A DNA stretch of 64,000 bases. Origin: Scatophagus argus (taxonomy: Eukaryota; Chordata; Actinopteri; Scatophagidae). Every line of letters begins with the position of its first letter. The first letter of the stretch is position 1. Below are positions 11,865 through 44,195 of this stretch, piece by piece. The DNA is taken from contig NC_058498.1 in assembly GCF_020382885.2 (NCBI RefSeq), forward strand, positions 12,188,501-12,252,500, in the 5' to 3' direction. The notes below the pieces were generated by a model that saw nothing but the letters and a program-made list of their open reading frames with translations, made no database searches and was not told the DNA's origin. The position numbers were made by a program, and so were the translations under genes.

Positions 11865-19313
<7,449 letters not shown>

Positions 19314-19471
19314 TGTCCCGCTGTGATGTGTTCAGGCCACACTCCGCTCCAAATACTGACTGAGCTGGGAAAACACACGTGCCTGCACACGCACGCGCTC
19401 ACGCACTCACACACACGCCCGCACACACACACACACACACTCTCACAACCACACACTCACACAGCTGACAC
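19314..19471 (-). other. gnb4 5' UTR part of start exon
   Basis: A good acceptor (pyrimidine-rich tract then ttttgcag) precedes 19471 on the - strand, and no in-frame ATG lies between it and the MSELEQ start. The exon therefore probably carries about 158 bases of 5' UTR, most of it a CA/TG repeat. The first noncoding exon lies further right. Confidence 0.6.
19384..19466. repeat. CA-type microsatellite
   Basis: CA-rich simple repeat with CG and CT interruptions, overlapping the probable gnb4 5' UTR exon. Histidine/threonine-rich ORFs here are artefacts of the repeat. Confidence 0.8.
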
Positions 19472-29860: not shown

Positions 29861-30867
29861 ATGAATACATTAGGACAGAGTCATGTACATGCAATGGAGA
29901 ATTGACAAGGTATTAATTTTGGGGCAGAGGTGGAGATAGATGCAACAACACTGATTACTTGGTCATTTTAGAAACAAGTTATTTGTTGATGACATGTATG
30001 TTAAAAATAAATATTAACATATATATTATATATACTGTAAGTTGCTCCAAGTAACCGCACGTTACATGTCTGCAATGAACATAGAGGGGTTAATGAACAC
30101 CAGAAAAGTTGGCCTGAAGCTTGTAACTTTTGTTTCAGGGAGAAACTGCAGAGGAAATGTGCAACGAGAAGAAGTGAGAGCGTTTCAGTCCAGGGGAATC
30201 CCAGACACTTCTGTAAATCAGGGGTGCAACAAGCAACACAAAGCATGAACTAACATGCTCTGAGTTTCCAAAGAAGTGAATCACACAAGTCATGTATGGG
30301 GGGTAAAAGATTTAAAGGAAGTGAGGAACAACCCTGATGTGCTAATGCAATCCTTTTCAAATGACTCCAGTTACAGCTGCAACACCATGACACCAGATAA
30401 TTATTAATTTATTACCAAGAGCCCTCATTTATTTTTGACTTGACATTTTGGGGCACCACAGGTCTCGAACACAAAATGAGCCAGCGGTATGACTTCTTGG
30501 TTGCCTAAAACCCAGACAGAATCCCTGATGGCAGAAATATAGATCGATTTGATGAGCCCACAACCAAAACACAACAGTCACCAGTGCTCCCTCTGTTAGT
30601 CCTGGCTCCATAACCATCTCCATTTTAATTCAAATTAAGCTTTTAGTGCAGATTTAAAATCTTCTTTAGGCACTTTTTTAAAAAAAAAACAAAAAAAACA
30701 AAAAACTGTAGGGATATCTCTCTGTGGACATTTTACCAAACTATATAATATAAGAATTAGCCTGGCAGTAACACACTGTAACAATAAATCTCAAGATAAA
30801 AGAATCTAGAGGAAGCACCAGACAATGTACACACTAATGTACACCAAAAACAGTTAAAGCTTTTCTA

Positions 30868-31050
30868 CCTTTGTCCAGTGCAGATGAATAGCAGAGGAAG
30901 CAGACGTTTTCTGCATACGTCCGAAATGGCACTGATTGAGAGTCGTACTACCGAGCGCTGTCGTTTCAGTTCTTCCTCTCAGCCGAGAGCGTAGATGCTG
31001 CTGGGAGGAGCAGTAAATGGAGGGGGAGACAGAACTGGAGTATGAGGTAG
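30868..31050 (-). promoter_or_regulatory. Candidate alternative gnb4 first exon/promoter
   Basis: A possible - strand donor (ggacaaag then gtagaa) ends at 30868, and the sequence behind it is richer in G/C and CpG than its surroundings (cgagcgctgtcg, agccgagagcg). This would suit a distal promoter for gnb4. No transcript evidence is available, and confidence is low. Confidence 0.25.
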
Positions 31051-32076
31051 AGAGTTGCTGAGTGGGAGGGTGAGCATATGGGGGGCATGCAGGATGGGAG
31101 ATGGAGTAGTATTTCTATTAAAGGGACAGAGTTTATTTCTTCAGAATTAAAGTGAAAGATAAAATATAGACTCTGTCCTGTACATATTGTAATGCTGTCT
31201 TCATATTAACCTAGAGTACATGGTACATGGAATTTTCAGTTTGCCTCAATCTGTGGCTTGTGATATTTAAATGACACACAGAACAACTGAACATTATAAA
31301 GATGACCAGCCTGCAATGAAACAGTTGGCATGTCTGACTGTTCTTAAGTTTTTGAGTTTTACTGGTCTTTAGGGACTGTTGTTGCTTCATCTTCCCTTCT
31401 CTGTAAAATTTTTTGAAAAAATAGCACAGGCAGTCCACACAAGCATAAAGCCTTTTATTTGTTGTTTTATGTGTAACTCTTTTGGTCTTTAGATGGAAAG
31501 CACCATATAATCAATGCTGTAAAGGAGATGCAAACATCCAGGACTTGAATCTATTAATTTAAAAAACATAAAGAAAAAGAAAAAACAAACTTGATGACAT
31601 CTTAAGAGTGTCTGTTTGAAATTCTTTTTGCACTGCAATGATTTGATCTACACGGTAATAACGTCCACTCAAGTTTTTCTTTCACAATAAATGTAAGGTT
31701 TATTTTTTTATAAAGTACAAAGTATCTGGTACAGTTATTCAGCGCTCAAACTCACTTTCTTAAGTGCTTGAAAAGTGCAAACCAGCCATTTGAAGAAACA
31801 GTATTTGACCTTTCACAAACTAATTTCAAAGAGTTATTTCAAAACCAAGAATAACAACTAAAGCAATAACCAGAAGTATGTAGATATGATACAGGAAAAA
31901 TTAAACCAAACCAAAATTTATTTCTTTTTTTTTGCTAGAATTCAAACTGAACTGTTTGTAAAAATGCAATGACACATGTCTAAAATTTGTGAGACAACAA
32001 CACTCTGCCTCTAAACCATTTAGTGTTGTCCTTTCTGCTTCATCAAATGCTTTGAACAACAAACCACTTGAAGGCT
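31051..32076. other. Gene-free stretch containing aldh7a1 3' UTR
   Basis: On the - strand, downstream of the aldh7a1 stop, AATAAA signals lie at 31917-31922, 31699-31704 and 31454-31459, so the 3' UTR is probably 0.15-0.65 kb. No clear poly(A) remnant or target-site repeat from retroposition is visible. No other feature is supported. Confidence 0.4.
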
Positions 32077-33705
32077 TCACTCAAACTTGATTCCCTGGGC
32101 CAGAGGAAGATCCTTGCTGTAGTTTATTGTGCAGGTTGAACGCCTCATGTACTGCTTCCACGAGTCACTGCCTGACTCTCTTCCGCCTCCTGTGTGTTTC
32201 TCTCCACCAAAGGCTCCTCCGATCTCAGCTCCGCTTGTAGGAATGTTGACGTTCACAATGCCGCAATCTGATCCTTTAGGCCCCAGCCAGCGGAAAACCC
32301 GGCCCATATCTTTGGTAAAGATGCTGCTGGACAGGCCCTGTTTGACCTCGTTGTTCCAGGCAAACGCCTCCTCTTCTGTCTTGAACTTGAGGACGTACAA
32401 TATGGGGACAAAGGTTTCGGTCTGGACAATGGGAGCGTCGTGAGCCAGCCCTGTGATGATGGTAGGCTCCACGTAATTTCCAGGGCGGTCCATTACCTTG
32501 CCCCCACAGACAAGAGTGCCACCCTGCTGCTTGGCCTGCTCAATAGCTGCCAGATACTGCTCCACAGCTTGTTTGGTGTGCAGAGGCCCATACAGGGTGT
32601 TGGGATCCCAGGGGTCTCCGATGCGGACTTGTTTGTAGGCCTTGGCAATCCTCTCGACCACTGCGTCGTGGACACTCTCATGCAGCATCAGCCTCCTGGT
32701 CGTGGTGCAGCGCTGGCCAGCAGTTCCCACAGATGCAAAGACAGCAGAGGGTACCACAAGATTCAGGTCAGCATCCTCAAACACGATGATGGCATTGTTT
32801 CCACCAAGCTCCAGCAGCTTACGGCCAAACCTTTCCTGCACCATCATGGCCACCATCTTCCCGACGTGGGTGCTGCCTGTGAACGACAGCAGATCCACAC
32901 GCTCATCCTTCGCCATGGCTGTGCCGATATCAGCGCCTCCACAGGTCATGGAGCAGATGGCGCCAGGCAGGTTGTTCTGCTCTAGCACCTCAGCCACAAT
33001 CTTGGTAACTGCAACACTTGTGAGAGGTGTGGTTGGAGCTCCTTTCCACAGGCAGACATTGCCACAGGTTAGAGCGATGGCATTATTCCAGCCGTAAACA
33101 GCCACGGGGAAGTTAAAGGCAGTGATGATACCAACAAGACCAACTGGATTCCACTGTTCAATCAGGGCGTGGCCTGGTCTTTCTGATGGCAGGACAGGAC
33201 CACCAATCATTCTAGACAGACCAACGGCATAATCACAGACATCAATGTATTCTTGAACCTCTCCCACTCCTTCAACATAGATCTTTCCCATTTCCAGAGA
33301 CACCAGGCTCCCAAGGTCTTTAATCTTCTTTCTAAGTGCATCTCCAATCTGCCTCACAATCTCCCCTCTTTTGGGAGCTGGAACATCTGCCCACATCTTC
33401 CAAGCCTCCCTTGTCTTCTGTACAGTTTCTTCATACTCCGCCAAAGTTGCCTGAGTTACTCTGGCAATCGGCTCATTATTGGCAGGACAGTATGATGTGA
33501 TGACCTCTCCGCTGCCTCCCCAGCTCCCATTGTAAACACCAGGGTTGTCTTCAGACAGACCCAGCTCTTTCAGCCAGGAGTATTTGGCCTGGTTGATGAG
33601 AAGACCTGACATGGCTGCTGACTGCTGGCAGCGGACAGATCCTAAATTATTTCTCAATAGGAGCCTGCTGTGCTGGGCAAGGGTCAGAGTAAGGCAGCGC
33701 TGCAT
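32077..33705 (-). CDS. aldh7a1: Alpha-aminoadipic semialdehyde dehydrogenase (antiquitin), intronless
   Basis: NAD-dependent aldehyde dehydrogenase of lysine breakdown, oxidising alpha-aminoadipic semialdehyde; it also handles betaine aldehyde, and acts in mitochondria and cytosol. One uninterrupted ORF encodes 542 aa, the full family length. The N-terminus [17 protein letters not shown] is basic and hydrophobic like a mitochondrial presequence. Asn198 (TAFNFP), Glu299 (ELGGNN) and catalytic Cys333 (GQRCTTTRR) are present, and the protein ends LAQGIKFE as in vertebrate ALDH7A1. The start is the ATG at 33705. The frame is open five codons further but with no ATG, and a splice acceptor sits there. 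Mammalian ALDH7A1 has many coding introns and lies elsewhere, so this looks like an intact retrogene. It is divergent from actl6a. Confidence 0.95.
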
Positions 33706-34149
33706 GAGTGCTGGAAGCAAACCAAGTTAAAAATTAATTTCACAAGTTAAAAATTTTGGAAGAACATTAAATAACTGTCTTCAAATGTTTTCTCTTGAAT
33801 CTACAGTTCAAAGATATTTGGTTTACAATAGTTTAAAATCAACAAAATAAAAATCCTCACATTTGAACCAGACAATGTTTAATTTTCCTCAGCAGTTTAA
33901 CTGATTCTCCAAACTATAAGGTCTTGTTCTGCTGTTTCAAAGGTCAAAAATGAACTCTGAATTTCAAGATCAATAAATAACTTGAAAAAGCTGCGTCAGT
34001 CGAGTTGCGTTACAATGCAGCATACAGTGAACATGTGCTACAGGCAATGTGACAGTCAACAGCTGTTGACCAGAGAATGCTGGTATAAAAATAGGAGCTT
34101 TTTGTTCCAACTTTGTCTCTATGAATGCCTGAAGTAAATATTTTGTAAG

Positions 34150-34345
34150 AACGATTAATTTTGACAGTCTATTAACTGTTTATTATCTTAATAAGCAAAA
34201 ATGGCCAAATTATCTGGTTCTATCTCCTGACGAGTGAGGGTTTTCTTCCTCCTCTATGATATGAAGCTGAATTGCTTTGGGTGTGTGTTAGCATAAAACA
34301 AGTAATTTGAAGATGTCTCACTGGGCTTTTCCTGTTTTTAAGAAA
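34150..34345 (+). repeat. A/T-rich dispersed repeat, forward copy
   Basis: Words gaacgattaatttt, aagcaaaaatggcc, gtgagggttttct, atatgaagctgaattg and aatttgaagatgtctc occur in the order seen in other copies. Confidence 0.55.
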
Positions 34346-34414
34346 TTCAATAAACCAATTGTGACAGAAGCATAAAGTCAATAGAGCAGAAGCCACAAGT
34401 TAAACAATGGTTTG

Positions 34415-34620
34415 CAGTGGTGGAAGAAGTACACTAATTATCTACTTGAGTGAAAGTAACAATACAATGCAAATGTTGTGGATAAAAAATTAATTATGTT
34501 TGGAGTAATAGTGTAAAGATGTATAAAATGAAAACACTCAAGTAAAGTACAAGTACCTCGAATTTGTACTTAAGTACAGTTCTCAAATAAATGTACTTAG
34601 TTACAATTAGATAACCACTG
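34415..34620. mobile_element. hAT-like nonautonomous DNA element
   Basis: It begins cagtggtggaagaagtac and ends gtacttagttac...accactg, giving short inverted ends (cagtggt/accactg) and internal tacttaagtac-type words. The cagtggtggaagaagtac start is frequent in fish genomes. No 8-base target duplication is visible, so it is old or its edges have drifted. A related copy lies at 56264. Confidence 0.6.
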
Positions 34621-35107
34621 CTCATTATACCTAATGGCATTTGTGGGTGTTTCATTCAAAATATTTTATGGATTGGGCAACCATATACCTTATCATACCT
34701 AAACTAAACCTGCAGTTAGTCAAACAGATCCACTCTATGCGCTTGCGCCATTAATCCACCTTTGCAAAACCACGAGGCTGACGAAACTAGAACTTAATCA
34801 CGATTTTCTTGAAGAAATTAGACAATTAACGCTATAATATAACGCTGAAAGTAAAGCCATAAATAATTACGTTTGCATTTTCAAATCCCAAATTCTGCAT
34901 GTCATAAAGTCGGTGCTGCCACTTCTGCAGCATGACATGACATGGTCGCCGAGTTTGCTGAGTCTAAACGACCGTGACTCAAGGTCCAATAGTTTGCACT
35001 TGTTAACATTACCGTGCTGTTATAAAGCCTGCACTTACACTCGCAGTGCGTCAGCTTTTAATGAGTAAAAGTACATTTCTGTTACTTGCAATCAATTTTT
35101 CACTCAC

Positions 35108-35200
35108 GTCGATATCAAGTTCGTAGGGCCACGTCCACTCCAGAGCATGGAAGTACTTGCAGTTGCTTATGTTTCCGTCACAGCTGAAAACGGAAGTACT
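35108..35200 (-). other. Probable noncoding first exon of aldh7a1
   Basis: The exon ends at a strong GTGAGTG donor (35107) and would join the acceptor at 33710, five bases before the aldh7a1 ATG. It contains an ATG near 35146 whose frame does not match the main ORF, so it is either 5' UTR with an overlapping upstream ORF or lies outside the transcript. The start of transcription is not known. Confidence 0.5.
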
Positions 35201-35369
35201 AATGCAGTGCTACGTTCTGATTGGACAGTTGGCTCTGCGCAGTGTGGCGCCTGCTTTGTTAGATTGATCCATGCTAACGAAATTCCTTTGTTGTGATTAA
35301 CCGTTTAGCGGTTGTGATTCTGCAATAGTAACTTATATCAAGAAAGTTGGTGTTGAGATTATTTAGACG
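35108..35369. promoter_or_regulatory. Bidirectional promoter aldh7a1/actl6a
   Basis: Only about 260 bases separate the aldh7a1 first-exon donor from the actl6a ATG. The interval holds an inverted CCAAT box (ctgattgg, near 35217), ETS-type words (acggaagt near 35191, tttccg), and gcgcag/gcgcc words. No TATA box is obvious. The arrangement is typical of a shared housekeeping promoter. Confidence 0.6.
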
Positions 35370-43459
<8,090 letters not shown>

Positions 43460-44195
43460 TTTCAACACCCAGCCACCGCTACCCTCCTTGTCACTGTCAC
43501 AGACAGAAGCTCAACATCACGAGTCGTTCACCTCTGACCCTGGACTCAGGAACACTTACAGATGATTGCTCTTTTGTATGATTTGTTTTAAAAAATTAGT
43601 TTGTCCATGTGCCACCTGTCTATGATTTTTTTTTAGTGAAAATCACACAAACATCTACAAAGGAAACCGCATCATGATGAAATGAGGTTTAATTTTCTTG
43701 TATATCATAACCATCAGTCTGCTGCCTTATCGTTAGGATTGTTGGCGTTTAGTTGAAAACCTACATCTTTAAAAAAAAAAAAAAAGTTTTTCTGGGATTG
43801 ACAAAAGCGTGAGCTTGCTTCCTGTTGTCCATGCCTTTTCTCCCACTTTGGACAGAGTCTGGCATTGTCTCAAGGCAATTAAATATCAGCATGTTGGTCC
43901 TAAAGTTTGTGATCAGACTTGGGGAAAAACACAATGTAAAAACCAGTTTTTTCTGCAAGGTTTCTGTAGAATACTGAAAAGGTCAAATATGGGTTATGTG
44001 TATTTGGAACCTGAACAATTTGAGGTGAATGTCTTTTGTCTATAAGCCTTTCTCTCTTCTGTGTAGTAAGTAAACTCATAGGCCAGTCAGTGGTTGCCTA
44101 TGCTCATCGGTGTGAGTGTCCGCTCAAATTAACCTGTATTTAATTTTCACTTTGCTTGTAATTGGCTATATGCAGTCTTTTAAAAATAAAGCCCT
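43460..44195 (+). other. actl6a 3' UTR
   Basis: Sequence after the stop codon up to an AATAAA at 44185-44190, the expected cleavage region. It has no coding content. Confidence 0.6.
44185..44190 (+). terminator. actl6a polyadenylation signal
   Basis: Canonical AATAAA about 730 bases after the actl6a stop, with T-rich sequence following. It is the only canonical signal near the expected end. Confidence 0.6.

Follow-up and report, generated by a model that had tools for sequence, protein, structure and literature searches.

An intronless aldh7a1 in Scatophagus argus is very probably an orphan retrogene, and its ancestral neighbour phax is a candidate for a second

The antiquitin gene aldh7a1, found in a 64,000-nucleotide stretch of the Scatophagus argus genome (the window; positions without a chromosome are positions in it), is very probably an orphan retrogene, that is, a case of retrogene replacement. 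We put the probability of this reading at about 0.88. Its coding sequence has no introns, it lies away from the ancestral locus as judged by the human gene order, and no parent was found in the one assembly searched.

The coding sequence and its N-terminal segment are placed as follows.

32077..33705, minus strand: aldh7a1 (antiquitin) coding sequence, a single exon encoding 542 aa, identified by translation and by Pfam and PDB matches
33613..33705, minus strand: leader-like N-terminal segment, residues 1-31, preceding a conserved second Met at codon 32

The original prediction that the whole antiquitin protein is encoded in one ORF of 542 aa was borne out; the strand, which had gone unstated, is minus. 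The ORF starts with an ATG at 33705, ends with a stop at 32077, and its 542 codons contain no internal stop. It matched the Pfam Aldedh family with E=2.8e-136. Its best PDB match was seabream antiquitin (2jg7), with 501 of 510 residues identical (98.2%, 1158 bits), and an ORF of 542 codons that is 98% identical to a known enzyme cannot be a chance ORF. Human ALDH7A1 (4x0t) came next (431/511 identical, 1024 bits), with an alignment starting at M32, and was followed by four further entries (4pxn, 10fm, 6rtr and 6dbb; 488-711 bits) and then by betaine aldehyde dehydrogenases at no more than 237.5 bits. The top NCBIfam match was the L-piperidine-6-carboxylate dehydrogenase equivalog NF050084, whose 695.4 bits fall below the curated cut-off of 730; that library is bacterial and archaeal and does not define animal ALDH7A1. 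Residues 1-31 are probably a mitochondrial presequence, and M32 is presumably the cytosolic start by inference from human ALDH7A1. The catalytic Asn, Glu and Cys lie in the AFNFP, LELGG and GQRCT motifs, all three of which are present, so that the reported retention of these residues holds at the level of the motifs. Third-position G+C is 0.58 in this ORF as compared to 0.63-0.76 in seven neighbouring exons, a difference that we leave uninterpreted. The prediction that the copy is functional rests on conservation and sole-copy status.

By exon scan and by eye, the gene order around the ORF is mfn1, gnb4, aldh7a1, actl6a, mrpl47, ndufb5 and usp13. The ORF thus sits between gnb4 on the minus strand and actl6a on the plus strand.

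11889..19331, minus strand: gnb4 coding exons, multi-exon, named by eye; one exon matches WD40_Gbeta
35370..35394, plus strand: first coding exon of actl6a, encoding MSGGVYGG and followed by a GTGAGT donor, named by eye

The order mfn1-gnb4-actl6a-mrpl47-ndufb5-usp13 had been proposed from the sequence, together with the multi-exon structure of the neighbours. We saw the same order by eye, with partial Pfam and PDB support, and the other genes of the block are likewise split into exons in our exon scan. Pfam supported the G-beta WD40 exon, NDUFB5 and zf-UBP, and three of the nine queried sequences (mfn1, actl6a and mrpl47 exons) matched no family. A later exon of ACTL6A and MRPL47 were supported by PDB matches. 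The name mfn1 was given by eye only, as were gnb4 and usp13 with respect to their paralogues.

This block is a foreign position for aldh7a1 when compared with the human gene. Human ALDH7A1 lies on chromosome 5, flanked by GRAMD3 and PHAX and upstream of LMNB1 (PMC4424952); GRAMD3 is the current GRAMD2B. It spans 53,550 bp, with mention of an exon 12 and of a variant at the exon 11/intron boundary (PMC12443544), in agreement with the many coding introns originally stated for the mammalian gene. In zebrafish, a knock-out guide site was placed in exon 4, hence aldh7a1 has at least four exons (PMC5650160). Because both genes are multi-exon, introns are ancestral in aldh7a1, and the idea of an ancestrally single-exon gene was rejected (PMC12443544, PMC5650160). 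As far as one genome can show, these structures and the human location support the original prediction of a retrogene, given that the ORF is intact, lacks introns and sits in a syntenic block foreign to it. The ancestral place of aldh7a1 in ray-finned fish was taken from the human order, not from another fish.

We searched the Scatophagus argus assembly (570,666,677 bases in 48 contigs) in six frames with the aldh7a1 protein, and 32 candidates were scored. At E<=0.001 there were six matches, namely the ORF itself (100% over 542 aa) and five short pieces of 32-40% identity, which on re-alignment looked by eye like exons of aldh8a1, aldh9a1 and aldh1l. At E<=10 the number rose to 30, the ORF and 29 short pieces of 22-42% identity, and no second aldh7a1 was found in this search. 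None of the 29 weak matches falls in the stretches examined around gramd2b on chromosome C4 or lmnb1 on C20. As a positive control, a lamin B1 query, for which 75 of 145 candidates were scored, recovered lmnb1 on C20 as nine separate pieces at 19580757-19589448. Exons of 30 aa at 70% identity scored 49 bits on average in a rough ungapped simulation, with a 5th percentile of 34.6, to be compared with about 26 bits for E 6e-4 in the genome search. The search pre-selects candidates and reads masked stretches as N, and it would miss a parent located in sequence that is unassembled or masked. The lamin tail domain PF00932 had also been tried as a finder of lmnb1; it gave one weak match, which by eye is not a lamin, and the protein query was used instead. 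Introns presumably divide the domain. That match, at C21:8747258-8747407, lies in a 280-aa open frame with a secreted-like start.

The loci of the two old neighbours were then examined directly. The GRAM domain (PF02893) gave 18 matches, two of which, at 5.25 Mb on C20 and 22.56 Mb on C4, appeared gramd2b-like by eye. The C4 copy is gramd2b by eye, and slc12a2, also named by eye, follows 5.6 kb past its stop; in humans, SLC12A2 is found further along the segment that contains GRAMD2B. The gramd2b-slc12a2 stretch contains no N and neither aldh7a1 nor phax (best tblastn E 5.0 for aldh7a1, no match for phax). Around lmnb1 on C20, both genes were also absent from the 20 kb on its upstream side and the 10 kb on its downstream side (best E 0.55 for aldh7a1 and 3.6 for phax). 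Both gramd2b and lmnb1 remain split into exons. The GRAM exon at 5.25 Mb on C20 adjoins a TRAF-like gene and was set aside; it may have arisen in the teleost genome duplication, and the 20 kb around it (C20:5226001-5246291) contained neither aldh7a1 nor phax. The sequence upstream of lmnb1 (C20:19589001-19609000) showed by eye several transposon-like open frames, resembling reverse transcriptase and transposase, and no recognisable host gene.

The original suggestion that the parent may be missing in this fish is thus supported by the assembly search and by the gramd2b-slc12a2 and lmnb1 stretches. Because no other aldh7a1 was found, the lmnb1 control was recovered and the stretches examined at both neighbour loci lack the gene, the multi-exon parent has apparently been lost.

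The 5' side of the ORF was inspected for a promoter, and both sides for marks of retroposition. aldh7a1 and actl6a are arranged head-to-head, with 1,665 bp from ATG to ATG (actl6a start at 35370). The features are listed below, with a slash at each predicted splice junction.

34801..35700, no strand: CpG-rich stretch covering the actl6a start, candidate bidirectional promoter
33706..33711, minus strand: candidate 5'-UTR splice acceptor, TTTGCTTCCAG/CACTC-ATG; predicted exon start at 33710, 5 nt ahead of the ATG
35099..35107, minus strand: best-looking candidate 5'-UTR splice donor, GAC/GTGAGTGAA, predicted, 1.4 kb upstream of the acceptor
31917..31935, minus strand: A-rich run with AATAAA (31922), about 155 nt past the stop

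CpG observed/expected is 0.81-1.1 in the three 300-base bins of 34801-35700 and 0-0.67 in the remaining bins of 30001-44100. The predicted acceptor is one of three acceptor-like sites that a simple pattern finds in 33701-35600. The same interval contains three donor-like sites by pattern, at 35107, 35038 and 34321, the first two inside the CpG-rich stretch. An acceptor beside the ATG and donors within the CpG-rich stretch suggest that a non-coding first exon from the actl6a promoter region may be spliced onto the retrogene. A bacterial promoter scan was irrelevant to a vertebrate gene and was disregarded. On the 3' side, the A-rich run is possibly a poly(A) signal or a tail remnant and is not diagnostic; three more AATAAA motifs lie downstream at 31704, 31459 and 31137. 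Short imperfect repeats flank the ORF, but such two-copy pairs often arise by chance, and neither a clear poly(A) tail nor a target-site duplication was found when repeats of at least 14 nt were sought. Poly(A) tracts and target-site duplications are expected to decay with age.

The gene phax, which is next to ALDH7A1 in humans, shows the same pattern. It is one uninterrupted 405-aa ORF on the minus strand at C22:14970974-14972188, and searches with the PHAX domain and with the PHAX protein each matched this single place in the assembly. Human PHAX has introns. The fish ORF adjoins pmpcb, dnajc2, psmc2 and a slc26 gene (exons by eye), a block that lies on 7q22 in humans. The best PDB match of the pmpcb exon was MPP-beta; 26S subunit 7 was one of the many AAA proteins matched by the psmc2 exon, without ranking first. 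The start codons of phax and pmpcb are head-to-head, 1,070 bp apart (pmpcb start by eye), and splice-like sites were seen by eye just upstream of the phax ATG. Both aldh7a1 and phax are therefore intronless, the sole copies found, and head-to-head with a housekeeping gene, and their chromosomes differ from those of gramd2b and lmnb1. On these sequence features phax is a candidate second orphan retrogene, and retrocopies seem to have taken the place of two genes that were ancestrally adjacent. If orphan retrogenes are rare (25 for human; PMC5408686), the chance that two of them were neighbours is small. We tentatively suggest that a single event took the aldh7a1-phax pair once each gene had a backup; a decaying block that lost the two genes separately would give the same picture. 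We can offer only tentatively the full scenario, in which both genes were rescued by retrocopies at housekeeping promoters (actl6a and pmpcb) and the pair is gone from the loci of both old neighbours, probably by one deletion that was tolerated because the retrocopies already worked.

Other origins of the intronless aldh7a1 have to be weighed. The gene might have been translocated with its introns, at the DNA level, into the gnb4-actl6a block and then have lost all coding introns in situ. A poly(A) tail and a target-site duplication are not convincingly visible, as this origin would have it. However, a gene that in human covers 53.5 kb with at least 12 exons (PMC12443544) would have to shed every coding intron, and gnb4, actl6a and usp13 beside it have, by eye, kept theirs; moreover, phax is equally intron-free at an unrelated place, so retroposition fits better. 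We consider translocation with intron loss quite improbable. It is also very improbable that the ORF is a young processed copy beside a normal multi-exon gene that is absent only from the assembly. A single assembly was searched, with no reported completeness, which leaves some room for such a gene. Against it, the assembly is chromosome-scale (570.7 Mb, 48 contigs), lmnb1 and the ALDH paralogues were recovered exon by exon, identity stayed at or below 42% in every match at E<=10 apart from the ORF itself, and the gramd2b-slc12a2 interval is free both of N and of aldh7a1.

It is hardly credible that the ORF represents a processed pseudogene, whether dead or non-coding. The 542 codons are intact, both start codons and the catalytic motifs are retained, and identity to the seabream enzyme is 98.2%. 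When neutral evolution was simulated in 300 runs, a divergence of 0.05 substitutions per site left 7% of copies open and brought mean protein identity down to 90%. Since no other copy was found, loss of this one would deprive the fish of antiquitin, and zebrafish aldh7a1 mutants die as larvae (PMC8175701).

We thus favour an orphan retrogene, which may have arisen as follows. Reverse transcription of a full-length aldh7a1 mRNA that still encoded the N-terminal leader would have given a copy that landed between gnb4 and actl6a, two genes transcribed in divergent directions, on the upstream side of actl6a. The retrogene probably uses the CpG-rich actl6a promoter region through a newly gained non-coding first exon. 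Once expressed, it would have supplied antiquitin (alpha-aminoadipic semialdehyde dehydrogenase, lysine breakdown) and could have taken over the function of the multi-exon parent, ancestrally beside gramd2b and phax, which would have been lost afterwards.

Antiquitin is an enzyme of lysine breakdown; ALDH7A1 deficiency causes pyridoxine-dependent (vitamin-B6-dependent) epilepsy in people, and zebrafish mutants model this deficiency. A fish that obtains all its antiquitin from an intronless gene at a housekeeping promoter would be a natural experiment on whether this enzyme needs its introns, its splicing and its native regulation. If aldh7a1 and phax were lost and replaced as a pair, they would offer an unusual test of whether retrocopies license the deletion of a linked gene block. 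If the pair was indeed rescued by retrocopies, retroposition can protect against the loss not just of single genes but of a small block of genes as a whole. The replacement would also serve as a marker that could be dated quickly with other fish genomes.

Orphan retrogenes are a known kind of gene, and we found no published report of the aldh7a1 case. No report of an aldh7a1 retrogene was found in open-access full text, and the main text of part of the open-access teleost-retrogene literature does not mention aldh7a1 or antiquitin. No report of a phax retrogene was found in open-access full text either, by a weak check. Seabream antiquitin (2jg7) is the same enzyme (501/510 identical), and the seabream gene could be either this retrogene or the parent that has apparently been lost here. 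The 98% identity fits a wide spread among spiny-rayed fishes without showing it, and the aldh7a1 retrogene may be widespread in these fishes.

The closest parallel is the SYCP1 retrogene replacement in amphioxus, for which expression, UTR isoforms and promoter support have been reported (PMC5803294). As in that case, aldh7a1 has a single coding exon at a new place and the parent appears to be lost. Amphioxus SYCP1 co-opted the CHIC bidirectional promoter and gained de novo 5'-UTR exons (PMC5803294), which parallels the head-to-head layout, the CpG-rich region and the 5' acceptor of aldh7a1. Unlike in amphioxus, the promoter sharing and the UTR exon of aldh7a1 are predicted; the gene encodes an essential metabolic enzyme, its host is a fish, and phax, its neighbour in the human order, shares the pattern. 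Human orphan retrogenes, 25 in one list, include CHMP1B (Ciomborowska 2013, cited in PMC5408686), which is likewise an intronless functional copy whose parental gene was lost or pseudogenised; here the gene is aldh7a1 and the host a fish. Retrogene replacement also broke up an old gene neighbourhood in the case of tetrapod Sowah (Maeso 2012, cited in PMC5803294). In that case a single member of a linked pair relocated, whereas in Scatophagus argus retrocopies at different sites appear to have replaced both aldh7a1 and phax.
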